NCBI GenBank assembly: GCA_021234155.1 | Contig: JAJEKV010000072.1 | Location: 6,367,676-6,431,675, forward strand | Length of the DNA stretch: 64,000 nt | Direction of reading: 5' to 3' | DNA from: Isoetes taiwanensis | Lineage: Eukaryota > Streptophyta > Lycopodiopsida > Isoetales > Isoetaceae | In this document: one piece after another, positions 14,240-61,321 of the stretch | How the letters are laid out: each line of letters begins with the position of its first letter | Numbering within the stretch: position 1 is the first letter of the stretch | The notes under the pieces: model-generated | Databases searched by the model: none | Seen by the model: the letters and a program-made list of their open reading frames with translations, nothing else | What the model was told of the DNA's origin: nothing | Position numbers and translations under genes: made by a program

Positions 14240-15771
14240 TATCAACAATATGTCGGTTCATCAACAATATGCATCAGCTCAAAACCAGGAATACCTTAAA
14301 AAAGGAGGAATTACTATATTCTCAACAATGTCCAACAACTTGTTCCAGCCTTGTGTCCTAACGTCATTTAAGGATCCACCATGTAAAAAACACTTTCTTC
14401 ATGGTTTGTTGTCTAAAAATGGTGGTCATAGTGTAAGTGTGTCCTAACATTGTAATTGTTCCCAGACAATAAAAAAAATGGCACTTAAATTGTGCCATGG
14501 ATAGATGAATGTCATTGGCATTGTAATAGAAATTCTAGCCCACATATGCTTCGAAAAATGTACAATTATGGGCGACAACATTGTTGGGGAAGGCCACAAT
14601 AACATGGAATATGATTTAGACCTTGAGAGGCACCATAAAACCACGTTATTCCATGTTCTTATCTATCGCTTTCTTAACAATGTTGTCATGATCTGCAACA
14701 TAGTTCTCATGACAAATAAGAACTACTACTAAAGTCAGAAAAATGATTCCTGAGTGTTTTGATATGTACCAACTCATATTATCACTGTGACTTGATTTTC
14801 CAAAAGCTTTAGAATAAATGGGATGTCCAAGAAAAAAAGAACATAAACAGATTTGCATAAATGTGATGGATATGAACCATGAAGTCACCTCTAGTTCTAT
14901 TCAAATGAAGTAAAAAAGCTACTTAGTTGCCTGACATCAATAGTTATAGCATCTTGCATAGTTGTATCATGTATAGAAGCAGCAGAAAAGAGCAAATAGA
15001 AATTAGTATTGAAAGCTTATCGAGACATGCTTTTAGGAATCAATTTGAGACTAAGTAACCACAATGAAATGAGGACTTACAAACATAAAAGGAAAACCCA
15101 TTACCTGCAGAATGGCTAAGCAACAGTTTCTGGATCACAAATGCACCATTTAAAGCAAAGATCACAGTTTCTGAGAGAGACTCACCTCATTACTAATCTT
15201 GAATTCTAACAAAATAATGTCAATTGGATGTCAACATTGCAACAGATCAAAGGCAGCTATAACGTTGACAATTGTGGCCAAAGACCTTTAAGCTATATAC
15301 CACTTCAATAAAATGCCAGAAGCTGCCAGTATGTCTTTCTAAGTTGAATATATGAATATCTGGTGCTATTGAATACAAATGTAATTTGATATTCTTACCT
15401 CATCGCACATTTGGTTATCATGGTATCTGCTGAAAGAATATGTAGGAAAATATGTAGATCACATGCCTTGGATCTTTTTCTCTTAAAGGAACTCATGAAA
15501 ATTTGAGCTTTGAATACTCTCCACCATTCTAGATTTCATAAAATAACCTGCAAAGCCATCTTCAGTGATGGAACACCACCAGCCAGCCTGTTAAGGAAAA
15601 GAGAATTTGTATAGAAAACAATACAAAAAACATATAATACATGACTTATTGAGGTGCATAAGGAATATAAAGTAAGATTGAGAAGGATCCTAAAGTGAGC
15701 AAAATTAAACACATTGCAAAAAATGAAAACCCAAGAAATAAAACTTTGGCACATACTGCACAATGATGTAA
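14240..15771. other. Gene-free stretch between oxidase pseudogene and transposon
   Basis: No protein-like ORF or RNA gene is seen. Open frames near 14505 and 15536 have no recognisable features. The segment ends at the TTAA bordering the large transposon. Confidence 0.45.
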
Positions 15772-15775
15772 TTAA

Positions 15776-15798
15776 CAAGGTTGCATTTGAAACGGGAG
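15776..15798 (+). repeat. Left terminal inverted repeat of the transposon
   Basis: It starts CAAGGTTGCATTTGAAACGG. Immediately inside, 15786-15799 and 15808-15821 (ACTCCCGTTTCAAA) form a 14-bp perfect inverted repeat, so the left end itself folds into a hairpin. TTAA precedes at 15772-15775. Confidence 0.82.
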
Positions 15799-15956
15799 TG
15801 TTGCACAACTCCCGTTTCAAAGATTCCCTCAAAAAAACATGGCATCCTCTCAGAAATGAACTTTTTGGCCGAGTCAAAGGATTTTACGAGGTTAATTTTT
15901 TTTTCTTGCTTTTTAACCTCTCAGCAAGTGTACATTTCATTTGATGAAATATCATG

Positions 15957-16255
15957 GCCAAAAACTGCAAAATTTACAGCTGACTATGCAATACATGAAA
16001 TGAAGACAACAAAAACATCTTAGTTTAAATGAATTAATAATAGTACATTAATTAGAAATTTTAAATACATCAGTTTTGAAGGCAAAATTATTTGAACACT
16101 AGAATAGTCTGTCAGCTGTTAGTGGAAAAGGGCCAAATTTACAGTTGATTGTGTAGTGTAGACAAGCAAGACTAAGAAAATAAGAAAATTGATGGGAATC
16201 AATAATATTAATAATGAATAAATATTTCAGTATCAGTTTTAGAAGATGCCAATCT
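15957..16255. repeat. Diverged direct repeat inside the left end of the transposon
   Basis: About 15957-16093 and 16125-16255 share 'caaatttacag' / 'aaaatttacag', 'gaataataat'-type AT runs and 'cagttttgaag' / 'cagttttagaag' in the same order. Similarity is low. The stretch lies downstream of the methyltransferase gene end and has no coding features. Confidence 0.4.
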
Positions 16256-16277
16256 GAAAAATATTTCTCACAAGGAG

Positions 16278-16951
16278 TCAAAGATCAACTTCGTAGTCCT
16301 CCTCATGGTGTGTGCTTGTAGTTGCAACGTCTTCCTTAACAGGCTTCTCTTGCTGAGGTGATTTAACTTTTTCCTTGGTAGTGTTGTCTTCTGTTTCCAC
16401 TACTAGAGCCACTTCCTTCAGCTCTGCAAAAGTGACCTCATCCTCTGTGGAGCTAGTAAATGGAGGCTGTATTTCGGACGATGTCATTTTGGCAAAATCA
16501 GATGAGGATTTGGCACCTAGCTCTTGATTCTCGTCTGGTAAGCTAGGTAGTGCAGCCAATCTCATCTTAATAAAATTCACGGCCTCCTTGTCTATATCCG
16601 TTTTTTTGCTACGGTTTCGCCTTTTTAAGTGCTTTGCGGGCAATGGTTGATTACGGGCCGAAAGCATCAAGTATTCAAGTCTCCTTGGCGTGAAAACATG
16701 TCAATAAGCATGGTTGATTTCTTTTCAGTCGGCTCCAGTAGGCATTAGAGGGGCTTCCCCATAAGATAGTGATTGACAATTCTACCTGCGCTTGTTGCTT
16801 GGGTCTTGTGATATATGGTTATGATGTATTTCAATACAAGCCATATGTGTTGGAAACTCTAACACATTAGAAAAATCCCAAAAGCATCAATGGACATGTT
16901 GAAGTGCTCCATTGTTCTGAAGTTATTAGAAAAATGCCGTCGAAGCTCAGT
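16278..16951 (-). pseudogene. Disrupted C-terminal end of the ParB-methyltransferase gene
   Basis: Downstream of the TAA at 16954-16952 the minus strand still encodes recognisable methyltransferase pieces in shifting frames. There is an EPTEKKSTMLIDMFSRQGDL segment like the (N)EKP helix before the AdoMet site, then LDAFGP-stop-STIARKALKKAKP, corresponding to motif I (usually LDPFxGSGTT), then KKTDIDKEAVNFIKMRL, corresponding to the end of the Rossmann-like fold. The last 130 codons (16670-16278) are open, acidic and Ser/Thr-rich and end in EEDYEVDL. At least three stops and one or two frameshifts separate these pieces, so the protein as encoded would lack its cofactor site unless undetected splicing removes them. 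Confidence 0.65.
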
Positions 16952-19944
16952 TTAAAAAGCTGATGGTGAGGCCACATGAAGATATTCCACTTTGCTTAAC
17001 AATCTAGGGCCTCCAGCATGGTAATTTATATTGGTTTTGTACCTTTGGGAGAGAAGTGTAGTTAGCAATCTAGCAATTGATAAATACGTTTACTATTCCA
17101 GAATAGCAAAGGAAAGCAGAAGTATTCCAGAATAAGTTCTCACCAGACCAAATTCTCGCCCCCGCTTGGAGGGGATCCAAAATGATTCTTGAAGCTTCGC
17201 TTCCACCATTCCGCCTTGCATGCTAGAATGGAACACCACCGACCTCCGCTTAGCGCCGTTGTAATTTGTTTTAGACCATCAATAAAAGCATTGAACTCGG
17301 AGTTCCTAAATGGTAGGTCGTCATAACGGATGTCCTTGATCTTAAACCCGTACGGTATATCAGCAATGATCAGGGTAAAATTCTGGGGCTTAATGCTTCC
17401 CACCAACTTAGTGCAGTCACCTTGAACAACAGAAAACAAATTGTCCTGATCGAACAATGTAAACTTTTCAAACTCGGACGGTTCAACCGACAACCGCCTT
17501 CTGTCAGCCAAGGTGCTTTCCTCACGAGCAAGCTTTAGAAGGTGCATGAAACCTTCAGGAAGGTCTTTGTTTTTCTTTTTGTTCTGCTTTTGCAAATGAA
17601 GTTAAGTTGTGTACAAATAGTTGAAACAAACGAAGGTCCAAATGGTGAAGTATTATACCCATCCTTCAAAATTAGGAGCGTATTGTACAATGCGCTCGTC
17701 TGAAGTTGCCATAGGGTACAGCTCCTTACACCTTTCCCAGATTTCCACATTTAACTGCTCCATCAAGCATGTTTGGCATGCAATGACGTTCTTTTGGCTA
17801 ACAAACAGAAAATATTAAGTACATTACTTATTCCGGAATACAAAACAGATAAGGAATCCGAAAGTATGAAGCACGAGACATGAAGGCTTACTTGTGCAGT
17901 TCCTTTGACATCTCTTCTAAGGTAAACTCCTTGTCCACTACTTTCTGGAGTAACCTTTCTAGGATGGTTGTGTCCGTGAATCCCTGCAGCTCCCTCCGTT
18001 TGCGGATGGTCATTTCTTTTTTTGGCACATCTGTGCCCTTTTTCTTCTCTGTTACTTTACCTTTGCTCTTTAATTCCCCTCTTTCAAAAGCTGTAAATAT
18101 TTCGTTTTGCAGGTCCCATATCTACAGCACAACAACATATTGTAAGTTACACTGGAGAAAATCTTTTAATAATGAGCTACTATAAACATGAAGCAAAGGC
18201 CAAAGTGTATTCCGGAATACACTTCGGCCAGACACCAAAGGCCAAAGTGTATTCCGGAATACACTTCGGCCAGACACTGAATGCCAAAGTGTATTCCGGA
18301 ATACACTTTTGGCCTGACATTAAAGTGCGAGGACTATTCCAGAATACAGAAGCGCTTACTCTGCCATCCCTGAAAGCAAGTTGGAACCAATTATCGTGGC
18401 TGATGAGAGAGTGGCTCTTGCTGGCTTCATCGTACTTTAGACAGCACTCTATTGCGCACGCCTCCTTAAGCTTCAAAGATGGCCCTGGCTTCTTAAGATC
18501 TTCTCCATATTTTTCTTTGAATATCAAGTACTCTCTGTGCATGAATCTGATTGTATCGACAAAACTCATTTTGAGTTTGTACTCGTTATCTGCATTGTGT
18601 GTGTTGGCCACTATTTTTGCCTCTTCGTCAGTCGGGCCACAATACACCGCACAGAGGACGGAGAAGTATCTTGGATTTTGCTTTTCTTTAAAGAGTTGCC
18701 TGCGAGCTTTGAAGCTATGGTTTCCACCCAGCACATAATGTGTGTAGTGATCTGCACACTCTCTGTCATAATTTGCCAGGTCCATGCACTGGCTTCTGTC
18801 GACAAGCACAACTATTGGAGCAGCAAGTGCATTTGGGTTACTCCTTATCCTGTCTTTCAAGTTTCTGACGTGATCTGCATAAATTTTTCTCACCTGGAGT
18901 GGTCTCTCTCCTGTGACAGGAAAATAAATCACTCCTTGAACATATTTATTTTTATTTATTTCTTCCATCCGTTCTGCCGTCTTGTCTATCTTTTTTTCTT
19001 TAATTGCAACCCCTGGGGCCTTGCCCTTCCCCTTTGTTTTTTTTCCTATTTCCTGGGGTGCATCTTCAATAGCAAGTACCGCTGTCTTTCTTTTCTTGGG
19101 CTCCTTGGCAGCCACAGTTTGTCTTTGCTTCTTTGGTGGTGGTGGTGGGGTTGCTTCAAGTTCGGACTCAGCAGAATTTGCATCGTCCTCCTTACTCCCA
19201 GTTTGGCTGCTGCTTTCACCCCCACCTTCTTCTTCTGCTTCAGAAGCACTGTAGTCCAGTGCTTCACTTCTGCTGCTTGATACCGTCTTAAGGATTGTTG
19301 ACAATGCCAGCTTATTTATATAGTGGGCAATGTAACTGTAAAGCCGTGTAGGCTGCACGTTGGCTAGCTTAAAGTAGGCTACATCAAGAACAATGTAGCC
19401 TTGTGACGTCTTAAATGAAAGCCTTGGCTGTTGCTTGGCCTGCTCAGCAACTGACTCCACGTGCTGTATGGATCCCATGCACACACACTCAGACTCGTCG
19501 TGCCGTTTCTGCCCTGGGCTGTGACAGACATACAGGAAAGTGACATTGCTGTACTTTCCTGCGAAACCTCTCGTGACGTACCACTGGGTCTAAAAGTTCT
19601 CGTATATTTGTGGCTCAGTGGTCTCTTGTTCCGTTTCAGGCGCGGGTTTCGTGCTCTTGAGCTTGATGGTCCTTCTGGGTTTTGGAACACCATGTTCCTG
19701 CCTGCAACATCACAGTAACTAACTGTTTTAGTTAAAGCAAAGTGAACTAGAAAATGTATTCCGGAATAACATTGTCTAAATTCTACTGCTAAAGCGCTTA
19801 AAAATGCACTAAATTTAATGTTTTTGTAGCAAAACTTTTTTGAACTGAAGGCCAAAGTGTATTCCGGAATACACTTTGGCCTCTACCTAAACAACAATTC
19901 TAAAATATGCCCGTACATTGTACTTTTACCGCTCACCTCTCCAT
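16952..19944 (-). CDS. ParB-like / DNA methyltransferase fusion protein, six-exon model
   Basis: Exon model on the minus strand: 19944-19937, 19701-18360, 18121-17892, 17797-17659, 17583-17144, 17042-16952. All introns are GT-AG and all phases agree. The start ATGGAGAG|GTGAGC gives MERQEHG. Residues about 155-250 are acidic then Pro/Lys-rich and probably disordered. Residues about 265-345 resemble a ParB/sulfiredoxin fold: GERPLQVRKIYADHV, a PIVVLVD strand and VLGGNHSFKARR. Residues about 620-735 form the N-terminal half of a beta-class N6/N4 DNA methyltransferase: VVQGDCTKLV, motif IV IIADIPYG near 646-652, then ENLVWYKTN across the last splice. ParB plus this methyltransferase type is a known bacterial and phage fusion. 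Faults are an in-frame TAG at 19592-19590 and TAA at 16954-16952. A role in modifying or binding DNA is inferred. Confidence 0.72.
17093..17134. repeat. Two TATTCCAGAATA palindromes in intron 5
   Basis: TATTCCAGAATA cores lie at 17094-17105 and 17123-17134, each one base from the perfect TATTCCGGAATA. They sit inside the 101-bp intron 17143-17043 of the ParB-methyltransferase gene. Confidence 0.75.
17829..17840. repeat. TATTCCGGAATA palindrome in intron 3
   Basis: A perfect 12-bp palindrome inside the 94-bp intron 17891-17798 of the ParB-methyltransferase gene. It lacks the longer GTG...CAC arms of the strongest copies. Confidence 0.8.
18198..18346. repeat. Phased array of four palindromes in intron 2 (42-bp spacing)
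   Basis: Three copies of the 18-bp palindrome GTGTATTCCGGAATACAC start at 18205, 18247 and 18289, exactly 42 bp apart, each within a longer inverted repeat with GCCAAA / GGC arms. A fourth, degenerate core (TATTCCAGAATA, 18335-18346) follows 43 bp after the third core. The array lies wholly inside the 238-bp intron 18359-18122. On the coding strand it is also open in frame, which makes a repetitive KCIPEYTLAF tail if the intron is not removed. Confidence 0.9.
19757..19768. repeat. TATTCCGGAATA palindrome in intron 1
   Basis: A perfect 12-bp core in the 235-bp first intron (19936-19702) of the ParB-methyltransferase gene, 89 bp from the 32-bp palindrome in the same intron. Confidence 0.8.
19850..19881. 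repeat. Perfect 32-bp palindrome in intron 1
   Basis: The half-site GGCCAAAGTGTATTCC is followed directly by its exact reverse complement. It is the most complete copy of the family and lies about 60 bp downstream of the start codon of the ParB-methyltransferase gene, inside the first intron. It could be a dimer binding site or extrude a cruciform. Confidence 0.92.
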
Positions 19945-20223
19945 GCTGCGTGCTAAAGTATTGTAGAAGGTTTCGAAGGCGCTAGATTGGAGCGGCTGGA
20001 GCTTCGAAACTGGAATACACGACTAAGTGCCAAAAAATCTCTTTTTAAAGGTCTGCTTCAGACACATGTCCATTTCTATGTATACCGGAATATGTTTGAT
20101 TCAAAATGTGTGCTAACATGTATTCCAGAATAGCAGACTTCTCCTTGGCTTGACACTTCGTATTCTCGAATAGCAAACTTGCACAAGTTGCTTCCGTATC
20201 TCTCCTAGTTGAAGTTATTGAAG
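19945..20223. promoter_or_regulatory. Shared divergent promoter region of the transposon genes
   Basis: This stretch of about 280 bp separates the ATG of the ParB-methyltransferase gene (19944, minus) from the first ATG of the plus-strand ORF (20224). It contains three degenerate palindromes: TATACCGGAATA at 20081-20092, TATTCCAGAATA at 20121-20132 and TATTCTCGAATA at 20161-20172. No clear TATA box stands out. The position suggests the palindromes could serve as operators for both genes; that is inference. Confidence 0.55.
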
Positions 20224-20592
20224 ATGGTTAATCGCATCCAGAACAGACTTCCACCACCTTTTGTTGCACCGAGTTCCTCTACTTCAGAGGAAATGCCCGA
20301 TGAGCATGTGTTTTTGCCTGGTGCCCACGCTTCCTCATCTCCTGCCTCTACAGCATCCTTGTTACTCCTTGATGATTCTCCAAGTCCATCACATAGTAGA
20401 TTGCCACCACCTTTCCAACCCTCCCCGAGCCCTTTCAAGAGTAGGTTGCCTCCTCCCTTCGTTCCATCTCCACATGTACACAGTAGGCTATCACCTCCTT
20501 TTGTACCATCACCAGAAGCTGCATATGCTGCAGCACAACAGATGTTTCTAAAAAGACTGCCCCCAGTATTTGTAGCTTCTCCTCTAACATGA
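20224..20592 (+). CDS. Proline-rich ORF, likely 5' exon of the transposase gene
   Basis: From ATG 20224 the frame reads MVNRIQNRLPPPFVAPSS and holds repeated SRLPPPFVPSP-like units (about five, degenerate), ending at TGA 20590-20592. After the stop the same frame still looks coding for about 90 codons (a SPPPPINVVTHGFAEF segment) with one more TAA. It may be an N-terminal disordered exon of the downstream gene, with the stop avoided by splicing or caused by decay. Alternatively it is a separate small gene. Proline-rich repeats give no function. Confidence 0.4.
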   Translation: MVNRIQNRLPPPFVAPSSSTSEEMPDEHVFLPGAHASSSPASTASLLLLDDSPSPSHSRLPPPFQPSPSPFKSRLPPPFVPSPHVHSRLSPPFVPSPEAAYAAAQQMFLKRLPPVFVASPLT

Positions 20593-20891
20593 ACAAGTAC
20601 AAGGTCTGCAACACACCCACAAGAATGTGAAATTCTCCATCACTTTTCTCACCATGACTTGTGCACAAATGAAGACGATGTTGTAGGGTCCCCACCTCCT
20701 CCCATAAATGTTGTGACACATGGGTTTGCAGAATTTCAAACAGCAATAAGATAAATGTTTGACAAGACACCTAGTCAACACAATCAAGCAACAACATCCT
20801 ACGGCCCATCACCTACATTTAACACTGTCCCTCCGAATTTTTCGGGTACTGTGTCACGTGGTTTATTTTCCTAGAGGAGGTCATTCCTAGA

Positions 20892-23396
20892 GTGGAACTC
20901 TCATCAGAGGATAAAGACCCTGACAAGGAACAACGAGATTACATGTTCTCTAACCAATCTTCAAAGAAATTCAAAGTAGATTTCAGCTTGAGAGCATGTT
21001 CTTCCGTAAGAAGAAGAAATCTGATGGACGAGCAGAAAATAAGAAAAATTCTCAGAACTACATGCTGTTCATTGGGATGCATTAGCAAATTCAACGTGGC
21101 TAAACTTCGTGCAATTAGAGACCATTACAGTTCTATGACAATTTCAGAACAGAATGCCTACTTGGCTTATCATGTAAGACCAGACAGGCACAACTTCTTG
21201 CACTATATCAATCGGCAAGAAGTGTGTCAAAAATGCTTCATGGTCGTGCACCGCCTGGGTTCCTCCAGAATGTCTCGAATACATAAACGATTAGACAAAA
21301 GCCCTAGCATTGATGACCACTATGGGCCTGGAAAAATTGTAACAATGCATGCCCTAGCTGTTGTGGCATGGATGGAGAAATACTTCAGAGAAACGTGTGA
21401 AAAATTGCCAAACAGCAATATGTATCACTTGACAGATAACATCACAAAAAAAGATGTTTTCAAAGAATACAAAGAGACATGCAGTCAGTCTCAGCATATC
21501 TCTTATTCACATTTCACTAGATTGTGGAAAACTGAATTTGGTCTTGTAAAAATTCCTCGAAGACACAGAATGTCTGTGTGCTCAACGTGTGCAGAACTAA
21601 AGAGTCAGAAAGAAACTGCAAGGACAGAGCTCGAAAAAAGTAAGTTCAAGTTCTTCATTCTCGTACTTGCATCATGTAATTGTTTTGACCTGCTTCCTTC
21701 AACAGACATTGTGCAACAAAAGCTTGCTAAACACCGTGACCAACAAGCAGCTGAGAGAAGGAAGCTTGCTAAGCATAGGAAAAAAGCTCTTGAGCGTCCA
21801 TTTGAGTACATGTCCGTTGTGATTGATGGAATGGATCAGAAAAAGACGACTCTACCTCATTTCTTGAACATTCCAAAAGATGTGCCAGAAGAATGCTTTG
21901 TCAAGGTCCACCTCGTAGGGGCCATGGACTTCAATGGGAGTCTAAAGTGCAAAGTCTTTTTAACATATCCTAATTTGCATGGTGATCCAAATCTCACAAT
22001 TACAATTCTTAACAAGGTTCTTTGTGAGCAACAACAGTTACCACCAGTGCTCTACCTGCAACTTGACAACACTACCAGGGAGAACAAGAATCAAACACTC
22101 TTTGCTTACTGTGCCATGCTAGTGGAGCTGGAGATTTTCAGAAAAATAAAGCTTGGATTCTTACTAGTAGGGCATACACACGATCAAATAGATCAGATGT
22201 TCAGCAGGTTTTCAGTGCGTCTCAGAAGAAAAAAAGCTTTTTGTCTTCCCACTTTGGTTCGTATCATTGAAGACTCTTACACTCCCATGCCAGTAGTTGA
22301 GCTTCTAAAGGAGACTGCCGACTTCAGGGAATTTGTTTTCTCTCAATGTGCAAACAGAGAACAAGCTGTGAACAAGCTAAATGACATTACGTTTCAACAT
22401 CACATCAAATTCTACTTGAAGAATGGAGAGAGCCTTTTGCAGGGAAAGAAGTACACTACAACTAAAGGGTGGAGTCCGGTAGAGGGATTACGCTTCCTTA
22501 AATCTGTTCCAGACACTAGTTCCATGGAACGTGCTGAGCAGCTTCCTCTAAAAAATCCAAAAGTGTCAAAGCAGCAAAAAAGTACCCCAGTCACTTCCTT
22601 GAAATCCATTGAAAATAGAATTTCCACGGGTTTTAAGTACTTCACTGAAGAAGATCAAATGTGGTGGAGAGGCTTCTTTCTAGAACAAAAGACTATGATT
22701 CAGAACCTAGCTCTGAGGCAGTTGCAAGAACCTTTTAAGTGGTCTAATGCTTTCCACCAACCGCAGGACCAGGCAGGTCAAAGCATTGCTGCAGTAGCAG
22801 TTGCAGTACATGAAGATGAGGACCGGGTCATGTACCTCGGACCAAGATGCAGGAATGAACCTACAGGTAATGTCACAGAAATTACCAAAGGTATGTTGAT
22901 TGCTCTTCCGACTGAGGAGGATGACAAGAGGAGACATTTTTGGATAGCCAAAGTACTTGACACAATCAAAGAGGAAGGCCTGGTAACAAAACTCAAGATT
23001 TATTGGCTTGCTACACGTTCAGAAAATGCTTTTGAAGGTAGGTATGAGCTAGAAATGAGAAGTCAAGGAAAGGGCAAAAAGGCCAAGAAAGTTGGATGCA
23101 GGGATGAGCTAGACTTACGACAAGTGAGTATTTTGTGCTATGATTTCAAATTGAAATCAGACAATCGTTTACGCCAGAAAACAATCAACTTGCTTAAGAA
23201 GGCTTGTAACTATGAAGAAGAAGATGAAGAAGAGGTTGGGAATGCTTCACCGTCTGTTGATAGTGATGAGGAAGATAACTCAAGCACTTCCTCAAGTGAC
23301 AGTGAAAGAAGTGAAACTGACGAAGATGGCATAAACGAGCATGAAGATGTCTTAGATCCCTCTCTTATCACTCCTCACACTTTTGCACATAACTGA
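20892..23396 (+). CDS. DUF7869-type protein, probable transposase
   Basis: An open frame of more than 830 codons. An in-frame 66-bp intron (21640-21705, GTAAGT...CAACAG) is likely, giving about 810 residues. The N-terminal part has Cys pairs (TCCSLGC, VCQKC, VCSTCAEL) suggesting zinc binding. The central part has DGMDQ, then QLDNTTRENKN, then VGHTHDQIDQMFSR. I recall this order from proteins annotated DUF7869 in plants, oomycetes and animals, and it resembles an RNase H/DDE layout. Near the C-terminus, MLIALPTEEDDKRRHFWIAKVL resembles the usual tail domain, followed by an acidic Ser-rich end. No ATG lies in frame between the TAA at 20820 and 20943, so the 5' end must be spliced (acceptors at 20874 or 20890) or start at ATG 20943. 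It is the longest intact ORF in the window. Confidence 0.82.
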   Translation: MELSSEDKDPDKEQRDYMFSNQSSKKFKVDFSLRACSSVRRRNLMDEQKIRKILRTTCCSLGCISKFNVAKLRAIRDHYSSMTISEQNAYLAYHVRPDRHNFLHYINRQEVCQKCFMVVHRLGSSRMSRIHKRLDKSPSIDDHYGPGKIVTMHALAVVAWMEKYFRETCEKLPNSNMYHLTDNITKKDVFKEYKETCSQSQHISYSHFTRLWKTEFGLVKIPRRHRMSVCSTCAELKSQKETARTELEKSKFKFFILVLASCNCFDLLPSTDIVQQKLAKHRDQQAAERRKLAKHRKKALERPFEYMSVVIDGMDQKKTTLPHFLNIPKDVPEECFVKVHLVGAMDFNGSLKCKVFLTYPNLHGDPNLTITILNKVLCEQQQLPPVLYLQLDNTTRENKNQTLFAYCAMLVELEIFRKIKLGFLLVGHTHDQIDQMFSRFSVRLRRKKAFCLPTLVRIIEDSYTPMPVVELLKETADFREFVFSQCANREQAVNKLNDITFQHHIKFYLKNGESLLQGKKYTTTKGWSPVEGLRFLKSVPDTSSMERAEQLPLKNPKVSKQQKSTPVTSLKSIENRISTGFKYFTEEDQMWWRGFFLEQKTMIQNLALRQLQEPFKWSNAFHQPQDQAGQSIAAVAVAVHEDEDRVMYLGPRCRNEPTGNVTEITKGMLIALPTEEDDKRRHFWIAKVLDTIKEEGLVTKLKIYWLATRSENAFEGRYELEMRSQGKGKKAKKVGCRDELDLRQVSILCYDFKLKSDNRLRQKTINLLKKACNYEEEDEEEVGNASPSVDSDEEDNSSTSSSDSERSETDEDGINEHEDVLDPSLITPHTFAHN

Positions 23397-23726
23397 GTCT
23401 TAGGAAAAAAGAAGTAAATTTTGAATGTGAATATGAAGATTTTATCTTCAATTTTGAAAATACTACTATTTCAGCTGTAAACTTCACTTCAATTTTTGGT
23501 TAAAATTTGTGTTCTCTTAAATTAGAGGTTTGCTCCAAAAAGACAATTTAGGTAAATTATAATTGCTAAAAAAAGTGTCACTTTGACATAGTCAATTCTC
23601 TGTTTGGAGAAAAAACTTGGTGATTTTAGGGGGGTCAAAATACATTTTTATGCCCTTTTTTTTTAACACCTCATTTTAGCCATTTTTTGCAGAAAAATAG
23701 GGAATCTTCAAGGAATATTCCTTTTG

Positions 23727-23749
23727 CTCCCGTTTCAAATGCAATCTTG
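23727..23749 (-). repeat. Right terminal inverted repeat of the transposon
   Basis: Read inward from 23749 on the minus strand it starts CAAGATTGCATTTGAAACGG, differing from the left repeat at one base. TTAA follows outside at 23750-23753. Just inside, AAGGAATATTCCTT forms a palindrome in the position where the left end carries its own different hairpin. Confidence 0.82.
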
Positions 23750-23753
23750 TTAA

Positions 23754-26264
23754 TTGAACAAATTGATGCCTATTATGCCTATTAATAACGTAGACAATAT
23801 TATCATAGTTCGCACCATGGAAAATGGCATTTCGACTGCAGTAGAGAATCTAGCAAGCAAGAGTTTTTTGATACTCATCTTCTTATTGAAGCCCATAAAT
23901 CCTGGACTGCATTGAATGGGGAAAAAAATGACATGTTGCAGATAGCAGATTAAAAACATGCATGAGTAGCAGAATTGAATGTCAAAAGAGGACCTGAAAA
24001 GCAGAAATACTCATAAATTTTAAAGATAAAATCTGTGGAACAGAACTAGAAATGTGACACTTTCTAGATATAAGCTCAGATCCAAAACTGAGTTTGATCC
24101 TAAAATAGGCGAAACATCACCAAGAAGCAGAATGTAAGCTCCGTAAAAAATACCAAAACATACTGGTCAAATAAGGCCCTAATCACAAATAAGTCATGAC
24201 TTGACAACAAATTACCTTTCTAGAGAAGATTCCAAGTTGTCACACCACATGTCTATGGATAAGCCTCTGCCTTGAATGCCTAAAGAAAATGACAATGATA
24301 CTATGAATTCATGGTGTCACAAACTGGCATCATAGATTAGCACTATTAGAATGATTTACCATGCGACCAAGAACCCAACCTTCAGTTTGAAGAATTGTTT
24401 GGGTGCTTGCCCTATGTAACCATCCACAAATCAAGAATGATAATGCTGATTTGAAGCTAAAATTGCTGATGGATGGCTTCTGTATACAAATAACCTCTCT
24501 GTCTTTTCATTTGCCTGGTTGCAGTGAAAATTGCTAAGCCCTGCACATAATGCACACATAAACCTGTGAAGAAACTCGGATAAACACCTGCAAAAGACTG
24601 AAACTATAAATCACCTACAAATCTAGAAAACTCCCAACTTTATTCTTTCTTTCTTGTCTGTGTCGATTACGAACAAAGCTCATGCATTTTGCTGATTTGC
24701 ATGTTGCAGGCCCTTGCATGCCATTTGAAGGTAACATTCAACATTCTCAACATTATCAACATTCAACATTCTATTCCTTCCAAGTGATTTAGCGCTAACG
24801 CAACTATTGCAGCTGTATACTCTGATCTTTCACAGCCAGCCAACATCTAAAGATGATTCAATCTCGATTTTATGGTCAATACCTTGTCATAGCATTTTAC
24901 AAATGATAGTCCAAGTGATTTACCCCTTTTTCTCTTATTCTTCAGCCTATAATCTTAGTCCTCTAGGCGACTTGAGCATAGGTTTAAGGAAAACTGGCAT
25001 CAACATGAATGTTAGTAGAATGGCCATCCTAGATTTGGCCATGGCCGTTCCAAAACTCCACTGCAAAATCTAAACGTCACATTTAGAGGAGGGAATCGAT
25101 CCTGATGAGTAGCTGAACTCAAATGGAATAATAATTAAAGGAAAATAATGTCCCCAAAATTACCCGTGCCAGAATTACAAATTTTCTGATCCCAAAATTT
25201 TGCATTTTTGCTGGATTTTAATGTCTTCAAGCAGCCGAAAAAAAGAGGACACCCACCCCTAAAAACATTAAGTAGATAAACAATAATAGGATCATTCATG
25301 CAACTTATTAAGAAGGGGTTAAACCCCCTTGCAAGTCAGGGCTCAAATTTGACGGCTTTCACGCCTGTTTTTGGCATTTTTGCCTGTCAAAACAAGCAAA
25401 AATAAAATTTGTATTGCAAATGAAAGGTAGCCAATGACCAAATGCCTGTCATGCAGAAGGTCCACCAAAATACATATTTGTCATTTGAAAAGCTAGAAAT
25501 TTAAATTCTCCTGTCATTTTTTTTTATTTTCTTATCTTTTTATAAATAAAATGATATAATATATAGGCCCATATACAAAAATGTATGATCCATCCAAACA
25601 ACCTTTAATAAATTAGACACCATCCAACCATTGAAAAAGGGGAATACTAGCTTGCATCAGCCAGGGAATTGCCAAGGAATCGGCCAGGGGCCATTCTTGG
25701 GCTTATACTTGGGCTTATGCTTGGCAAACAACACTGCTATTCTTGTGCTTACACTTGGGCTCTTTGATTGTTCTGCATCAAGACTTTTGAAACCACCACT
25801 TCTACAAATCTATCTCATCTATTCATTCATGGAGCAAGATAAAGACAACGTAAGTAAGTTCAAATTAGATCATTTGCTCTACATTATTGTGATTTCTTGC
25901 TTTTTCGTGCTCCTTGCATTTTCGTAGTTTTCTATTTTTTATTATTGCGGTGGCTTCTTTAAGCTAAAAAAAGAAGGAAAGCCAATCAATGTAGATCTGT
26001 GCTTTCTTTTTGCAAATTCTCTAATAGCATAGTTGCAAGCTCAGACTCTCAAACGCAGCAGCAGCCCGACATAGTTCTTGAGGAGACCATAGAAATTATA
26101 GAAGGTTCTTGTAACGTACAGAAGAACATACATATTGTTGATGTACATTTAAAACGGTTATATTATTACGAGTTTATAATAGACTTTATAATTGTTTTTT
26201 TTTTTTTTTACATAAAAAATAGTTTCTGTCATTTGGGATTTTTGGCTTGCATTTGAAAGGTTAA
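23754..26264. other. Gene-free stretch right of the transposon
   Basis: No gene is recognised. A 30-bp piece of the duplicated oxidase flank recurs near 25285-25314. 'gcctgtcatgcagaagg' near 25445 recurs near 26707. Open frames at 24807 and 25631 are hydrophobic or unremarkable and lack family features. Confidence 0.45.
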
Positions 26265-27327: not shown

Positions 27328-27792
27328 TCAACAATGATCAGAGAAGTATGAGTTGAAATAGGCATTAAAGGCATCGGTGGAGCCAAAGAAGTATTGATCA
27401 AGGGGCCAATTATTGTAATAACAGAGTCTGAACATGTCCTTGTCCTCCAGGAGAATCAGCAATGATCCATATAGATCAGCCAGTAGCTTATGACTGTAGT
27501 ATAGTGTTCTGTATCTTGATAGTTGAGCCTCTGTGAGAATGAGATTATTGGCTGAAAGAAATTTCCACAAGCAATGGATCTGGACAACCTCCCTGCAAAA
27601 TATACTTGCCCACAGATCTTCACTCTCCTTCTTGTACCTCATATGTCCTCTTTTCATCAGAAATGACTCCATTGAGGTGGCTATGTCATTTTTCATGACT
27701 TGATCCTGAGATGTCTGGCTAAATGGTGAGTTGCTGGTATCAAATTTCTTACTTCCTTCTCCTCGTAGAAAATTAAGATACTCTAGGATCAT
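27328..27792 (-). CDS. Small downstream ORF of the AT-rich L1
   Basis: 154 codons from ATG 27792 overlapping the end of ORF2 by 20 bases in another frame. The protein is charged with aromatic residues (KRGHMRYKKESEDLWASIF) and ends NSYFSDHC. I recognise no domain. It could be a true third ORF, a frameshifted continuation of ORF2, or chance. Its length in AT-rich DNA argues mildly against chance. Confidence 0.4.
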   Translation of the reverse strand: MILEYLNFLRGEGSKKFDTSNSPFSQTSQDQVMKNDIATSMESFLMKRGHMRYKKESEDLWASIFCREVVQIHCLWKFLSANNLILTEAQLSRYRTLYYSHKLLADLYGSLLILLEDKDMFRLCYYNNWPLDQYFFGSTDAFNAYFNSYFSDHC

Positions 27793-30700
27793 CAGAGAGA
27801 AATAAGTTAGAATCTACAACATTTAAATTTGAAGCAAACAAATCATAATGACCCCTATACAAACCATAGTCCTCCCATTTCCTGTCAAAATTAGCTCCAA
27901 ATTTCTTTTTATGTGCTGTAGCAATGGTCTCAAAATCAAACTGAAAGTGCAATTTAATCCAGAATATGGACACATTTTTTTTACCATATAACATCCGATT
28001 CCTTGCTTTCCAAATGTTCCAAAGGGCAATATTAATAATTGAATTGACAAATTTATCATCATTATTCATAAGGGACATAAGATCCCCATTAATTAGAATC
28101 CCAAATTTGTCAGAGAACCAAGACCAGAAACCATTCAGGGTGCTACAAAAGAAAATATGGCACATGTCCTCAGGCCTGTTACAAGCTAATGGGCAATTAG
28201 TAGAAATATTGGGGTTTCTTCTAGACATGGAGACCAGATTATTCAAACTACCATTAGCAATGAGCCAGATGAAGTATGAGATTTTTGGAGGACAATAAGA
28301 ATGCCAGACATTATGAAATATTCTCTTGAGTTGATCATAGCTAATGGACCATTTCACCATAGCTTTACATCCATCAATATTGGAGGTCATAGCATTGTAA
28401 ACATTTTTCACTTTATAATCTCCTTTTTCATTTATCCTCCAGTCACTTTTTCCGGAGTTGACAGATAAGTTTGAGAGAAAGGGTTTAATGATAGCATAAA
28501 TTTTCTTATCAGATGAAGTGCCCCTGATAATACCTTTCAGTCTAGTCCAAGACATGATTCTTCCATTTACAAACATATCTCTGATATAAACTACACCAGC
28601 CTCATGCCATTTCTTATGAATCCTTGGGTGCTTGATAGCAAGTACAGGAGAATTAGGCTCAGCCATAATGGGATTCCAAAAGATTGGCACATCAGCATGA
28701 AGCTCATCTCTTTTAATAAAATGGAAATTAGGAGAGATAGCATTCCAAGCTTTGATGAGATTTTGCATAAGAGGGGAGATGCTGGGGCCTGGTTTCAGTT
28801 GACTGAATGCAGAATGGGGAAGCAGATGCTGAACTGAGGGGTGACCACAGGGGTGACTTTGAGAAATCCAATATCTGATAAAGATATAAGCAGGAGATTG
28901 ATTCCCATGAATTGCTTTCCAAATAAGCTTGCCAGCAAGAGATTGAGCTTGAATAAAAAGATTCTTGCAACCTAAACCTCCAGATACTTTAGACTTGCAT
29001 ATGGAATTCCAATTAACCAAGTGACTTCCCTTCCAGATGAAATTTCTAATTATCTTCTCGAGCTCCAAATAAACATACTTTGGAGCTACAAGAACTGTGG
29101 AAAAGTAGACATGAGAACTGGCAAGAACAGCATTGGCAATGATAGTTCTACCTGCAAGAGAGAGATAATTCCCATAGTTGTTCAACTTCTTTTTGATTCT
29201 CAAAATAATAGGGTCCCAAAGACCTTTGATGCTGTGGTTCATAGCTATAGGTAATCCCAATAATTTAGTTGCCTGATTAATAGGAAGGACGTTAATACCA
29301 GCTAGAACTGGAATACTGAGATCACCAATGATCATACTCTTATTCAAGTTCAAATGGATACCAGAGGCAGCAGAAAATTGTCCCACAATCTTAAGAAAGA
29401 GATTGATATTTTGAAGATCAGCATCAAGGAAGGAGAAAGTATCATCAGCATATTGAAGAATGGATATACTATCATCAGAATTTGGAAGATTTAAACCTTT
29501 CAACTGAGCAGTATTCTGATAATGCAGAATGACCCTGGTTAAGAGTTCAGCAACCACAAGGAAAAGGTTAGGGGCCAGGGGACATCCTTGTCTAACTCCA
29601 CATGAAAGAGGAAAGAAGCCAGAAAGAACACCATTAATGAGAACAGCAGAATTGGACCTAGAGTTTAAGCCATGAATTAGATTCATGAGTTTGGGATGGA
29701 ACCCAAGTTTAGACATGGCAAAATCTAAGAAATCCCACCTTACTGAATCAAAAGCCCTTTTAAAATCCAGCTTGAGAAGAATGCAGTTTTGATTTGAGAT
29801 CTTGTTCCAATGCAAACCTTCCATAGCAGCCACATAATTATCTAAGATATACCTATTTGGAAGAAAAGCTGATTGATTATGGCTAATGTTCCTTTGAAGG
29901 AAGCTTTTGATTCTCAGGGCAATGATCTTAGCACAAATCTTGTATGTGGTATTTGTGAGAGAGATGGGCCTCCAGTCCTGAAACTTAGAAGGATGATCTA
30001 CCTTAGGAATCAGAGAGATAAATCCACTAGAGATAGAAGGATGTAGATGATTATCATTCCAGAAGGCATGGACAAGGGAAGTAACATCAGTTTTGAGTAT
30101 ATCCCAGAACTTGATGTAGAATTCTGCTGGTAGGCCATCTGGTCCAGGAGATTTGCCTTTGCTGAAGGAATTGAGAATTTCATAAATCTCATTTTGAGAT
30201 GGAATAGCAGTAATAGCTTCATCCATTATTTCACTAGGATTTGGAAGAATGGAATCCACAGTGGAGATAAACTCATTGGCTTCAGTAGCCATGTTGGGGG
30301 GAATTGGCTTGTCACTAAAGATATTCATATAACTGCTCTTGAAGAAATTTGCAATCTCAGAATGTGAACTATAAATATTACCATGATCATCAACAGTCTC
30401 AGCAATGGAGTTTCTAAGAACCCTACTTTTTGCAACTCTGAAGAAGAATTTTGAAGAGCCAGAGTCCATATCATTAGTATACTTAATTTTACATCTAATA
30501 GCTGAACCCTTAGCTTCCATTTCCTCAATATTCTTAATTCTTCTCTCTAAGATATCCTCCCCTACATGAAGATTATAGTTAGAGGGATCATTCTGTAGAA
30601 GAGACCTTATATTCTTCATATACACTAGGAGCTGATTTTTTTCTCTACTTCTCTCCTCTTTGATGATTTTAGACTAATTTTTAATCCACCCTTTGATTTG

Positions 30701-32264: not shown

Positions 32265-35200
32265 GGGATTGTGAATGTCTACGCCCACAACAGCGCGCGG
32301 CAGATAGGGGCATTGTGGGCGTCGTTAAGACATAAGGTCGCATCCTTGGGGGCGGATGTGGCTTGGCTGTTGTTGAGCGACTTCAACATGGTCGAGTCCA
32401 TTCATGATAGGTGTGGCAAAGGAGCGGAAGTTGTGCAGGATTTTGAGCGGCAGTAGTGGGTGATGTTGCTGGACTCCTTGCATCTGACAGAGGCGGCGTG
32501 CGACTCTTCATTTACGTGGTGTAATCAGTGGACGGGGGCCGGTCGGGCGTACGCTCGACACGACAGATGCTATGCTAATACCCTAGCAGCGGACCAGGTG
32601 CCCTAGCTCAGGCAGACGAACATTTTGTCTACCACGGTCTCAGACCATTTTCCTCAGTTAATCTCCCAGGGAGCGACTGTAGCCAGACCGAGCCATACTG
32701 TGTTCAAGTTAAATACCGCCTACCTGAAGGATGCTGATTTCTCTTGGGGATGCCAACAGATTTGGTTTCGCACCTTTCAGGATAATTTCGGGATGGCAGG
32801 AATGGTGCAGGCCTTAGCTAAGGTCAAGGCATTCGCCAAGTCATGGGGAAGTCAGAGAGCACGGCAAGAGAGGGAGGTGTTAGAGGCGGCGTATCGCGAA
32901 TTGGAAGCCCTTAGATCTCGGTCGTCTGATGGGGTGCGGGAGAATGAGATTTTGCGCTACATTGCAGTAGATGAATCCAGGAGGACTGCTCAGGCAAGGG
33001 TGAAAGCAGGGATCACCTGGTTGCGGGAAGGAGACACTAATTCTCGAATGTTCTTCAGGGCTCCGCGACAGAAGAAGTATGTGGCCTCTATGTCGTCACT
33101 GGCATTGGTCGTATTCTGAATTCGCCGGTGGACATCAAGCTGGCAACTTTTCATCACTTCTCTCAGTTTTTTCAGGAAAAGAGATACCCCTACACAGACG
33201 TGATGGAGGAGATCGTTCTCAGTAAAGTGTCATGCAAGGTGTCGGCAGAGAGGAGGCAGATGTTGCAGTGCCCGCTCACAAAGCAGGAGCTTGAGGAGGC
33301 TTGTCGTGCCTTGGCCCCCCACAAGTGCCCTGATCTGGATGGCATTCTGGTCGAGTTCTTCCAAGTATATTGGGATTGGATGGGGACTCGGTGTTGCAGA
33401 CCTATCAAGATCTGCTTCAGGCAGAAGCGTTGGACTATAGGCTCAACACGGGCTGCATCTCGTTGATACCGAAGGTGAAGGAGCCAGCTATCATTTCTGA
33501 TTGGCACCCCATCACCCTTCTGTCGGCAGTATACAAAATTATCGCGAAGGCACTTTCGCTTAGACTGCAAGTAGTCTTAAAAGAGACTATTAGTCCCATG
33601 CAGTCTGGCTTCATTCTAGGCAGGCAGATTCTGAGCAATGTAGCGGCGGCATTCGAGGGCATTCACTGGGCACGCAGAACAGGTCAGCAGATTGTGTACT
33701 TGAAGCTGGATTTCGCAAAGGCCTATGATAGTGTTCGGTGGACGTTCTTGAAAAGGATGTTGTTGGCCTTTAGATGTGGGGAGGCCTTTACGGCAGTGGC
33801 TATGAAGCTCTTAATGTCCGCCAGAGCCACCCACCTGTGTCACGGCGAGTCATCTCTGATATTTAGGGTGGGGCGTGGAGTTCGCCAGGGATGCCCTTTG
33901 GCGCCCTTCCTCTTCACCATTGTAGCGGAGGCTCTCTCGCAGTTGTTGACTTCCGCAGTGGAGGCGGGTGTGGTGGAGGGGTTGAGGATGGCAGACGGGT
34001 CGCAGCAGATTGGGAGTCAGTACGCTGATGATTCATTCCTCTTCCTGCAGGCTGATGAGGGGAATCTGTTAAACACGAAGGAGCTGCTGGATACATTCTC
34101 CCTTGCTTCTGGCTGCCTCATGAATTGGACGAAGTGCTCGGCATTGTGGCTGGCAGCTGATCCCATGCCTGTGGTCGTGTCCCAATTCTCTTGGCGAATG
34201 CAGCCGCAGGGCACGTGCTCTAGGCTTTTGGGTATCCCATTCGGCATCGACATCTCAGCGTCAGCTGTGTGGGAGGATATTCTGGTGGTACTCCGTCGGC
34301 ATCTTAATTGGTGGAAGGGGGGGAAGCTGTCCATGGCTGGCAGGGTCACAGTGGCGAAGTCCGTCCTATGTTCGACTCATATTTATATGGCCTCTATCAT
34401 CCTGGCGCCAGAAACTAAGGTGCAGGAAATCTCCTCTATGGTTCGTAACTTCGTATGGGGAGGCAATGAGGAAGCGGTCGTGAAGGTGGCCTGGTGGAAG
34501 TGCGTGCGCCCCAAGGCTGGGGGTGGACTCGGCTTCTTCGACCTCTCGCTGCATGGCAAGGTCCTCTTGTCTAAGTTTGTCTTTGCCATTCTTGAGAATG
34601 CGCTCGACTCCCCGGGCATGGTCTTGCTTCAACAGTCGCTGTCTCACTCAATAGTTTTCCACAAGCCGTCCGTGTCCGCGCGGCTCTCTTGGGCGTTGTT
34701 CGTGGATATCAGGCCGTATGCTCATGCCTCTCCGTTTCTGAAGGGGCTTCTGCGAGCCTGGGAGCAGGTACGGCCGCTGTTTGTAATTGACGCCACCAGG
34801 TGCATTCAGTTGGAGGCATCGCCTTGGTGGATCCCGCTCGAACCACGCGCACCTTTGGTTCTAGCAGCCTCCATCGATCCCTGAGTTCAGCGCAGATGCG
34901 CGCAATCTGGGGTATTGACGGTGGCGGACTGGTATATGGATGGGCAGCTGGCACCCTGGTAGCTTTTTCGCCACAGATTTTGGCTTCAAGAACGGGATTG
35001 TGTTATCTGGGCGCGGGTGGCTAATGCTCTGCCGCTGCACCCTCCGCAGGCATCAGGACGTGTGTGGAAGTGTCACCCGAAAGTAGATCCCTCAAATTTC
35101 GTGAAATCCTGTTATGGGCTTTTGGCAATTCAAGATGAGCTGCCTCCTTCGGACGGGTGGAGTCTTTAGGTGGCCGGGGATGATTGGGCCTACATCTGGA

Positions 35201-51866: not shown

Positions 51867-53677
51867 TTAGCTAGTAAAAATGGAGGTTTCCCCAACCACA
51901 AAGAAGGGCCTCATCATGTCATTATCTTCATGCTCCAAGATGTGGCAATGCCAAACATAACCTGGACCAACAGTTGGGTCAAAAGGGTATTGGGAGCCAT
52001 TCTGGGTAGTAAAACTGATGAAAATTCTGGTAACATTTCCAGGCATTGCCCTCACTGTATCTTTCCAGCCAATCTCATCTACTCCGGGCGCAACCGGCGG
52101 CCCTGTGAAGCAGCTGCTTGGCTCGCCATAAGGAGCTTGGATTGAACAGGAGTTATTCTGGTAGCTTGTCACATTGAACGGCTGAAAATTGAGCACCTGG
52201 AATTGCACCAAATGAATATGCATAGGATGAGCGTCTGCTGTCGGATTGATCATGCTCCATATTTCTGTAGTATTTTGGGTGGGAAATGTGTCAGCAGGAT
52301 CATGGAAACCTTTATTGTCAATTGAAAGTCCTATTGATTGTCCCTGAGCTGTGGTGTTTTCATTTAATGTGAAATAACGTGTTAGAATGGGCTGGCCTGA
52401 GACATTTCCACATGATGGAATGGATTTGAGATCAATATCTCTTCTAGATATATTAGATGCAACAACATGGAATTTCATCACCATTTCTGTTCCTCCAGAT
52501 GGAACATCACCGCCAGGAAATGGAGCAGGGGCAGAATTCATTAACAATATGTCTGTGCCAGGAGGAACCAAAGAAAAATCTACCAAAACATCAACTCTGT
52601 AGGCAGGAGCAAGCTCGAGGGAGGAAGCATTTACAGGAGAAGAAAGGTACCCACCATCTGAACCAATTTTGGTGAAAAAAAGATCTGAAGAGTTGAAGAA
52701 AAGGGTGTAGAAGCGAGAATTGGAAGCATCGAGAATTCTAAAACGATAAGTTGTATTCTGAACGTTAAGATAAGGCCAGGCCATGCCATTGACGAGAATT
52801 GTATCGCCAAAAAACTCAGGGCACCAGTTGGGATGGACGTCAGGAACGAGGCCAACGTTGGGGTAGTTAAAGGAACCATTGGGGTAGAACTGGCGATCAG
52901 AGATGATTAAAGGAATTTGAAACTGGGCAGAGGGGAGGCCAAGTTGGGTTTCAAGGTGGGGTGACGTTAGGATATAAGCGCCTGCAAGGCCAGCATGAAC
53001 GTTTAGTCTGGTGATGCCAACAGCATGGTCATGGTACCACAACATGGTTGGACATTGAGAGTTGGGATAGTAATATAGTGGAGTGGACCAGGCCGGGCCG
53101 CGGTCGCCGAATTGCGTGAACCATGCATCAGGATTGCCATCTGATGTGCTTGGAACCTCTCCTCCATGCAGGTGCGTCACAGTAGGAATTCCACCATTTG
53201 GGGGATCTGCCCAATCAAGTGTTCTGTCCACTATGAACATGTGTTCCTCATCACTGATATTATTCTCCCAGCTAACCCATACTGGTTCAAACCTTTTAGC
53301 CACCAGCGTTGGCCCTGGAAATGTCGCAGTCTCCCAACTTGGACCATATGCATATAGTGGCGTTTCTGGCAGATCCCTGTGTAGCTTCTGCATCATCAAC
53401 ACACACAACATATATTAACTTAACATAAGTGTTACGTTTCTTCACAGATTTACCAAAGCAAAACTACACTTTTGGTTTTTCTTGCCTGTGTGATCTTATA
53501 CATGCCCATCCTAAAGGTTTCGTTGTATGAGAGAGTGATTGTCTGCATCACAGGCAGTGGATCCACGAATTTCTCGAGAAATGGAGAGGGTGTCATGTTT
53601 TGGCAGACAGATTGAGCATTTGCCAGCGTAACTGCTAGAATCAGAAAGTAATTTGCAGTCCATATGAAGAGTGCCAT
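51867..53677 (-). CDS. LPR1/CotA-like multicopper oxidase, secreted, intact
   Basis: Two exons (53677-53486 and 53387-51867) encode 570 residues. The 98-bp intron starts GCAAGA and ends CAG, a GC-AG intron, and splices KITQ to KLHRDLPETP in phase. The N-terminus has a signal peptide (FLILAVTLANA). All copper sites are present: HLHGG (His136, His138), WYHDH (183, 185), HPMHIH (451, 454, 456) and [13 protein letters not shown] (544-556) with Cys545 as type 1 ligand and Met555 axial. Many N-x-S/T sites suggest glycosylation. It resembles bacterial CotA/bilirubin oxidase and plant LPR1 ferroxidase more than laccase; oxidation of Fe(II) or phenolics in the wall is inferred. Paralogous 3' fragments lie at 11.9 and 13.6 kb. 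Confidence 0.93.
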
Positions 53678-60608: not shown

Positions 60609-61321
60609 ATGTCCCCGCTAGTTGTCCCCATGACCAGGTCAGGCAAGAAGTCGTCTCCAGAGAAGGCCGAATATGAAGGGGATTCGGCATCGTTGCTATA
60701 CATGCTATCAGAGATGAAATCAGCAATTAAGGAGTTGCGTGAGATGCTCGGAGAAGTAGTTTGTCAAAACAAATTCTTGACACAACAGAATTTGGAATTG
60801 AAGGAGGCATTATCCATGGAATCTGAAACTAGGGTTCCTAATATGGCTCAGATCACAAATGCAGTTGCAGTACAGCTAGTGAAGCATGACGAAATGGTGA
60901 CACAAGAAACCAGGGAACAAGAAATCAGAGCACAAAATCTCAAAATCTCAGGATTGGCAGAGGAGGAGAATGAAGATGTAAATCTAACAGTTGACCACTT
61001 CTTCAAGGAAACTATGAGGCTTCATGAACCTCAAGTAATTCACTACAGAAGACTCGGTAAACCAGGTAACTATACTCGGCCAATTTTGATAAAATTCAAG
61101 AGAGTTGATGCAGCAATAGAGTACTTATGAATAAGCCAGTTCTTAAAGGGCAGAAGATTTGGCTGAATGCTGATCTCACTCCAGCCCAATTAGAAGCCCG
61201 TAAAAAAGAATGGGCAAAAGTGAAAGTAGGAAGGGAGGAAGGTTTCGTAGCATATCTGGACAGAATCGGCAAAGTGCGTGGTCACTTGAAAAGAGAAATG
61301 ACTAGGAAATCCGGACTCTAA
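60609..61321 (+). pseudogene. LINE ORF1 (RNA-binding protein) with one frameshift
   Basis: The first part (60609-61130) has a coiled-coil-like region (MLSEMKSAIKELREMLGEVV) and an RRM-like stretch (RAQNLKISGLAEEENEDVNL, then HYRRLGKPGNYTRPILIKF). A frameshift at about 61127-61130 moves to a second frame (VLKGQKIWLNADLTPAQLEA) that finishes at a TAA at 61319-61321. Coiled coil, RRM and a C-terminal DLTP segment resemble L1-like ORF1 (Transposase_22 type). Such proteins trimerise and coat the element RNA. Confidence 0.7.

Follow-up and report, generated by a model that had tools for sequence, protein, structure and literature searches.

KDZ transposons of fungi carry a DNA-modifying enzyme, TET/JBP. 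Among the closest described systems is Sola1-1_Ec32 of the brown alga Ectocarpus (Genome Biology 2025, PMC12477816), for which the available excerpts of that paper describe a gene for a ParB-like protein plus methyltransferase on the strand opposite to the transposase; the methyltransferase is predicted there to make N4-methylcytosine (N4mC) or N6-methyladenine (N6mA). The same excerpts cite transposons with similar ParB-methyltransferase proteins from green and red algae (Iyer et al. 2011; Petroll et al. 2025). We analyzed a stretch of 64,000 nucleotides from the plant Isoetes taiwanensis (contig JAJEKV010000072.1, positions 6,367,676 to 6,431,675), referred to below as the window, and compared an element of 7,978 bp within it, at positions 15774-23751, with its copies in the genome.

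The window element belongs to a large family of cut-and-paste transposons with terminal inverted repeats (TIRs), which make 4-bp target-site duplications and carry a DUF7869 transposase gene together with a divergent ParB-methyltransferase gene. In the element lineages, palindromes of 12 to 14 bp, (G)TAT-n6-ATA(C), occur in clusters, and their six central bases are lineage-specific. We propose that these palindromes act in cis, like parS, and are recognized by a protein that the element itself encodes, most likely the ParB-methyltransferase. An earlier note, made from the sequence of the window, had described two divergent genes between inverted repeats, and this arrangement was confirmed. The parts of the element are as follows.

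15770-15773, no strand: target-site duplication, left copy, AATT (copy comparison and empty-site search)
15774-15798, plus strand: left TIR, 25 bp; a second copy of GAAACGGGAG, inverted, follows at about 15809-15818 (repeat search, copy comparison)
16278-17042, minus strand: ParB-methyltransferase exon 6, motif I region and C-terminus; frame-broken in the window copy, open in copy L005 (comparison with copies)
17144-17586, minus strand: ParB-methyltransferase exon 5, GDC...ADIPYG, motif IV region (comparison with copies)
17659-17797, minus strand: ParB-methyltransferase exon 4 (comparison with copies)
17892-18121, minus strand: ParB-methyltransferase exon 3 (comparison with copies)
18360-19697, minus strand: ParB-methyltransferase exon 2, putative ParB-like domain ...YVLGGNHSFKARRQL... 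(comparison with copies)
19937-20073, minus strand: ParB-methyltransferase exon 1, with a stop in the window copy (comparison with L005)
20224-20890, plus strand: transposase exon 1, proline-rich, two stops in the window copy, 3' boundary approximate (open reading frame)
20892-21639, plus strand: transposase exon 2, start approximate (reading frame and sequence comparison)
21706-23396, plus strand: transposase exon 3, with conserved VIDGMD, LDNTTREN and GHTHDQID (DUF7869 match, alignments)
23727-23751, minus strand: right TIR, 25 bp (repeat search, copy comparison)
23752-23755, no strand: target-site duplication, right copy, AATT (copy comparison and empty-site search)

Comparison of copies showed that the TIR is AACAAGRTTGCATTTGAAACGGGAG, of 25 bp, its arms matching at 24 of 25 positions; an inverted-repeat search of the window returned 29-nt arms at the element ends with 97% identity. 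The inverted repeats reported in the earlier note are therefore real, while its borders (15776-23749) had to be shifted to 15774-23751 and its flanking TTAA replaced by a duplication of AATT. TTAA was rejected as the target site: it consists of the TT of the AATT duplication and the AA of the TIR, and the duplications of other window-family copies differ (GAAT, CCTT, GAAA, CATT, ACAT, ATTT, TATT, AGTT, TATG, ATGC, CCAC). TTAA itself was the duplication in one copy, L023. Such variable duplications do not agree with assignment to piggyBac or Kolobok, which are TTAA elements. Assignment to KDZ was likewise rejected, since KDZ elements have 8-bp duplications and those found here are of 4 bp.

Allowing up to 3 mismatches, a search of the 1.66-Gb genome, in which all genome-wide counts were made, found the terminal pattern at 201 + 186 places and the reversed control at none. 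Perfect, variable 4-bp duplications were present at 25 of the 26 distinct insertions examined. In the window's family they flanked 12 of 13 end pairs, picked by eye among the first 100 places listed in the terminal-pattern search and counted without the segmental duplicate L008/L009 and the single end L020; the imperfect pair, L018/L019, matches at three of four bases. A divergent subfamily has cognate TIRs and perfect duplications in all six elements fetched with both ends, and non-autonomous elements have them in 7 of 7 cases. When the flanks of the window element were joined, they matched a paralogous site without the element at C1060:6070358-6070472 (87%, 115 bp against 124, with gaps). 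A second paralog (C908:16010840-16012050) matches the two halves of the same joined flanks with about 1.1 kb between them at the insertion point, and perhaps holds a shorter insertion at the same place. The joined flanks of copy L003 matched at least 40 scored places, each over 124 of 124 bases with 98-99% identity. Of the two things that the earlier note had proposed to look for, further full-length copies were found by the terminal repeats and sites without the element by joined flanks. Two observations on the ends and flanks may be added. At the left end (15774-15830) the TIR and the inverted copy of GAAACGGGAG form a hairpin-like end, a possible transposase site, and the divergent subfamily has a similar inverted copy inside one TIR. 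The near flanks of L004 and L008/L009 (C1034:8036141 and 8063551) are identical and lie about 27 kb apart, probably as a result of a segmental duplication that took the element along.

In the window copy the ParB-methyltransferase gene is broken: exons 1, 2 and 6 contain stops, and exon 6 also has a frame break; exon 2, compared with that of L005, has an in-frame TAG at about 19590 and lacks ten residues. In the transposase gene of the same copy, exons 2 and 3 are open and exon 1 has two stops. Since both genes carry stops, the suggestion in the earlier note that the window copy is autonomous was not supported. In L005, six exons separated by GT...AG introns give an open frame of 999 codons without any change. 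The derived protein matched N6_N4_Mtase (E 1.2e-16), CcrM (E 4.5e-8) and phrog_67 (E 3.7e-26). In beta-class methyltransferases motif IV comes before motif I, and the same order was found here, with a (D/N/S)-P-P-Y-like motif IV followed by a motif I of the form F-x-G-x-G. Of 16 exon-5 sequences, 15 have D[IL]PYG, the exception being L004 with N for D; all six aligned exon-6 sequences read FSGSGTT, and L004, which lies outside that alignment, reads FLGSGTT. The second gene is thus predicted to encode a fusion of a ParB-like DNA-binding protein with an N6-adenine/N4-cytosine DNA methyltransferase, the ParB assignment being weak by sequence.

The transposase gene contains DUF7869 at 21888-22457 (E 4.6e-51), in agreement with the type named in the earlier note, and an intron between exons 2 and 3 (21640-21705) was read from GT...AG. 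Three acidic motifs are conserved in the DUF7869 region, VIDG(M/I)D, LDNTTREN and GHTHDQID (GHMHDQID in L032), and the transposase probably has a DDD catalytic center. A literature search for DUF7869 found no paper. Sola elements, as Bao and colleagues are said to have described in 2009, make 4-bp duplications; of the features of Sola1, this duplication was found at the insertions counted above, with the full-length matches to the joined flanks of L003 in agreement, and TIRs are present.

Seven further copies of the window's family were fetched whole by their TIRs alone (L001-L007), and all seven match both genes, so that the two do co-occur between such repeats; L004 is rearranged inside and L007 heavily decayed. 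Searches of the genome gave at least 124 ParB-methyltransferase matches (65 of 6,034 candidates scored) and at least 62 transposase matches (54 of 12,357 candidates scored), with both genes divergent and adjacent at several loci. Both genes are under purifying selection. In pairs of distant stop-free copies (dS > 0.3; the pairs share sequences) the ParB exon had a median ratio of nonsynonymous to synonymous substitution rates (dN/dS) of 0.10 (12 pairs). The medians of two methyltransferase exons were 0.15 (12 pairs) and 0.09 (6 pairs), and each of two transposase exons had a median of 0.09 (14 and 7 pairs). ParB-exon pairs were mostly saturated, and 20 of 105 could be used. Between near copies the ratio was higher (0.15-0.33). 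One copy has both genes open across all aligned codons in a comparison made without first exons.

The palindrome of the window's family, TATTCCGGAATA, occurs in 7-18 copies with at most one mismatch in each of 15 element stretches, and not once in the 56 kb of the window outside the element. Genome-wide, 4,830 exact sites were counted; the reversed control, which is also a palindrome, gave 65. Sites were mapped against exons in the window copy, where 11 of them (6 exact) lie in methyltransferase introns 1, 2, 3 and 5 and between the genes. They were located by motif scan and have no strand.

17094-17134: two sites (17094, 17123; TATTCCAGAATA, one mismatch), intron 5
17829-17840: one exact site, intron 3
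18208-18346: four-site array, intron 2 (18208, 18250 and 18292 exact, 18335 with one mismatch; spacing 42-43)
19757-19871: two exact sites (19757, 19860), intron 1
20081-20132: two sites (20081, 20121; one mismatch each), between the divergent genes

The first three sites of intron 2 (18208, 18250, 18292) lie within longer near-perfect palindromes. Among neighbor spacings of up to 75 bp in window-type elements, 76 of 110 are of 41-42 bp, near four helical turns; non-autonomous elements and a lineage whose palindrome has the center AAATTT also show spacings of about 19-22 and 30-33. Phasing at 10.5 bp gave R of 0.78, 0.89 and 0.56 in three groups, with a broad optimum. One possibility is that the palindromes have no function, being selfish or neutral mini-satellites which local duplication has multiplied. 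Regular 41-42-bp units do suggest tandem duplication, and the size and place of the arrays vary between subfamilies. However, palindromes compared between subfamilies are mostly 86-100% identical (short matches, somewhat flattered because they are the best local matches among many repeats), and array stretches 74-87%, where the larger methyltransferase-gene exons are 68-78% and the transposase gene about 78% identical. In the commonest decayed sites the change is in the central CpG alone (CCGG to CCAG or CTGG), and the TAT-n6-ATA frame stays constant while the center switches between lineages. We therefore regard neutral mini-satellites as a highly improbable explanation.

Elements that lack both genes bear on the nature of the sites. 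The first 50 TATTCCGGAATA places listed, in contig order, make up 15 regions, all of which were fetched: nine have ParB-methyltransferase exons, two have the transposase only in the stretch taken, and four have neither gene. All four of the latter carry ends of the window's element type; three are complete elements lacking genes, bounded by both TIRs and by perfect duplications, and the fourth has one end and one site only. Four more short gene-less elements, chosen by TIRs alone among the places listed, have perfect duplications and 4-6 TATTCCGGAATA sites each, against 0 of the reversed motif. The arrays are thus kept in 7 of 7 gene-less elements examined, and a sequence kept in such elements is expected to be cis-acting. 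Such a site might instead be read by the DUF7869 transposase or enhance transposition, in the manner of the subterminal repeats of plant DNA transposons, with the ParB-methyltransferase in an unrelated accessory role. Sites in the gene-less elements lie about 370-1,330 bp from one or both ends, as expected of transposition enhancers, and both genes co-diverge with the motif (see below). In the window copy, however, the sites lie 1.3-4.4 kb inside the left end, in introns and between the genes, with none near the ends, and what is repeated at the ends is another motif, GAAACGGGAG with its inverted second copy. Moreover, ParB dimers usually target clusters of palindromic sites. We consider it unlikely, on these grounds, that the palindromes belong to the transposase.

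Other lineages with DUF7869 have palindromes of their own. Three loci of such lineages (L062, L063 and L064) possess the ParB exon, with a transposase 49-55% identical and, in the two compared, a ParB domain 47-53% identical; none has TATTCCGGAATA, and instead TATGAATTCATA is found in L062 and TATAAATTTATA in L063 and L064. Six further DUF7869 loci were sampled as the 1.3 kb upstream of the domain: three contain TATAAATTTATA, two contain TATGCGCGCATA, and L067 has no exact recurrent palindrome in that stretch. Thus 8 of the 9 other loci sampled have their own recurrent palindrome, in the frame TAT-n6-ATA with another center (AAATTT, GCGCGC or GAATTC). Against their reversed controls, GTATAAATTTATAC was counted 12,556 times in the genome (control 17), TATGCGCGCATA 1,659 times (control 9) and GTATGAATTCATAC 64 times (control 11). 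TATGCGCGCATA, which stands upstream of DUF7869 in L066 and L068 (C1075, C1045), is CpG-rich, and the GCGCGC lineage was seen only in stretches containing no ParB exon. ParB domains of elements sharing a motif are 84-89% identical (4 sequences), and those with different motifs 47-63% (6 sequences). Changes in the site go along with changes in the protein, the pattern to be expected where one binds the other. If the arrays were cis-regulatory sites of a host transcription factor driving the element genes, their clustering between the divergent genes and in introns of the window copy would be accounted for, but their retention in gene-less elements would not, and a different center for each lineage within one genome is not expected of a host factor. 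A host factor therefore seems very unlikely.

In the mechanism that we propose, the ParB part would act in trans and, like ParB on parS, bind those palindrome arrays that belong to its lineage. Once bound, it may load the methyltransferase onto array DNA, and methylation would then take place at or near the arrays. Marking of the elements in this way may work against silencing by the host, license the action of the transposase or set the time of transposition. Taken as a whole, this explanation, a transposon family with lineage arrays bound by its own ParB part and the methyltransferase loaded there, is in our judgment somewhat probable. A more specific form, a self-recognition code in which helically spaced lineage arrays let each ParB deliver N6mA or N4mC to the copies of its lineage, the gene-less ones included, is put forward tentatively, as possible.

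Several points weigh against this interpretation. The match of exon 2 to a ParB model is weak: NCBIfam TIGR03764 was the most frequent match (14 of 15 members), its best E-value of 2.5e-4 being far below cut-off, and no Pfam ParB model matched the protein. A Foldseek search with the ParB exon had the ParB-like PadC as its top two hits (E 0.078 and 0.093) and none at E ≤ 0.001, from a poor model (predicted local distance difference test, pLDDT, 44.5). Its sequence profile gave one chance-level hit against the PDB, and of 22 pattern matches to relatives in viral contigs none was confirmed. The transposase model is also poor (pLDDT 38.7), and membership of the family in Sola1, which it resembles most, is likely by resemblance to the published description, not by sequence comparison. 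Because the two genes are linked, their joint change with the motif does not say which protein reads the site. The seven gene-less cases are related elements with related ends and so are not independent. Phasing computed on distinct spacings fell to R of 0.37, 0.87 and 0.35, weak in two of the three groups, and regular spacing may be inherited because arrays grow by local duplication. In L023 one site lies about 420 bp from the right end, nearer than in the window copy, which also favors a transposase site. The six whole loci of the divergent subfamily were chosen for side-by-side genes and add nothing to the evidence for co-occurrence; a seventh, L029, was chosen for its methyltransferase gene and is cut at the transposase end. 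Finally, the genome searches had hinted at a methyltransferase gene that stays whole beside a decaying transposase gene. This was not clearly supported: within the same 15 elements stops per codon are about equal in the two genes (61 in 13,352 codons against 60 in 11,869), with 17 frame breaks against 34. Both genes decay at similar rates, and therefore no special retention of the methyltransferase is claimed.

Other features of the window and genome were also noted. A plant-type frame of a long interspersed nuclear element (LINE), with reverse transcriptase and zf-RVT domains, lies at 27773-30673 (minus strand), and a LINE fragment with reverse transcriptase at 32607-34884 (plus strand), where GC is 52-57% against a background mostly of 35-40%. 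At 60609-63959 (plus strand) there is an element without long terminal repeats, with endonuclease and reverse transcriptase frames, of a type different from the zf-RVT one. The only host-type gene noticed among the long frames is a multicopper oxidase frame of 515 codons at 51870-53414 (minus strand). Rfam and tRNA scans of the window found nothing. The genome has 27 RbcS matches, which mark the host as a plant, and one fragment has chloroplast RbcS chains as its best PDB matches, the top ones being of Arabidopsis types.

A literature search on why eukaryotic transposons keep ParB-methyltransferase genes found no experimental answer. A role in marking or protection, as suggested for the elements described here, would have in the arrays a candidate substrate, that is, a defined DNA site present in thousands of copies, while four alternative centers in one genome and gene-less elements serve as natural controls. 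Whether a transposon writes its own N6mA or N4mC, and where, thus becomes a testable question. If our reading is true, parS-like epigenetic marking would tell self from non-self in the nuclear DNA of a plant, through several orthogonal specificities that coexist in one genome; such transposon-encoded self-marking in a plant would also supply orthogonal DNA-binding domains whose code can be read.

Bacterial and phage ParB proteins with beta-class methyltransferases (CcrM; phrog_67) share the N6_N4 methyltransferase domain and, putatively, a ParB-like domain with the protein predicted here. Among the 20 matches listed of 717 records, phage proteins were 23-25% identical over 37-41% of the query, in the methyltransferase part only; unlike these bacterial and phage proteins, the Isoetes gene is spliced, eukaryotic and located inside a TIR transposon. 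KDZ is, like the present family, a DNA transposon with a DNA-modifying enzyme, with a different enzyme and without the 4-bp duplications found here. The earlier note knew of no description of the gene combination; however, the pairing and the idea are already in print, as the available excerpts of PMC12477816 describe them for Sola1-1_Ec32. No report of the palindromes was found in the literature: a search for the four sequences gave papers with unrelated titles, and the listings on the gene pairing, in which PMC12477816 alone looked relevant, showed none; Iyer et al. 2011 and Petroll et al. 2025 are known by citation only. The element of Ectocarpus, likened to ours by description, not by sequence, is of 21.5 kb against 8.0 kb, its protein has 1,104 amino acids against 999, and the excerpts of PMC12477816 mention no palindrome arrays. 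Its host is a brown alga, and ours a plant whose RbcS resembles land-plant RbcS. Set beside these systems, the Isoetes family is a member, from a plant, of the Sola1-like ParB-methyltransferase transposons; its clustered, lineage-coded palindromes are probably sites that act in cis and are bound by the DNA-binding protein of the element itself.

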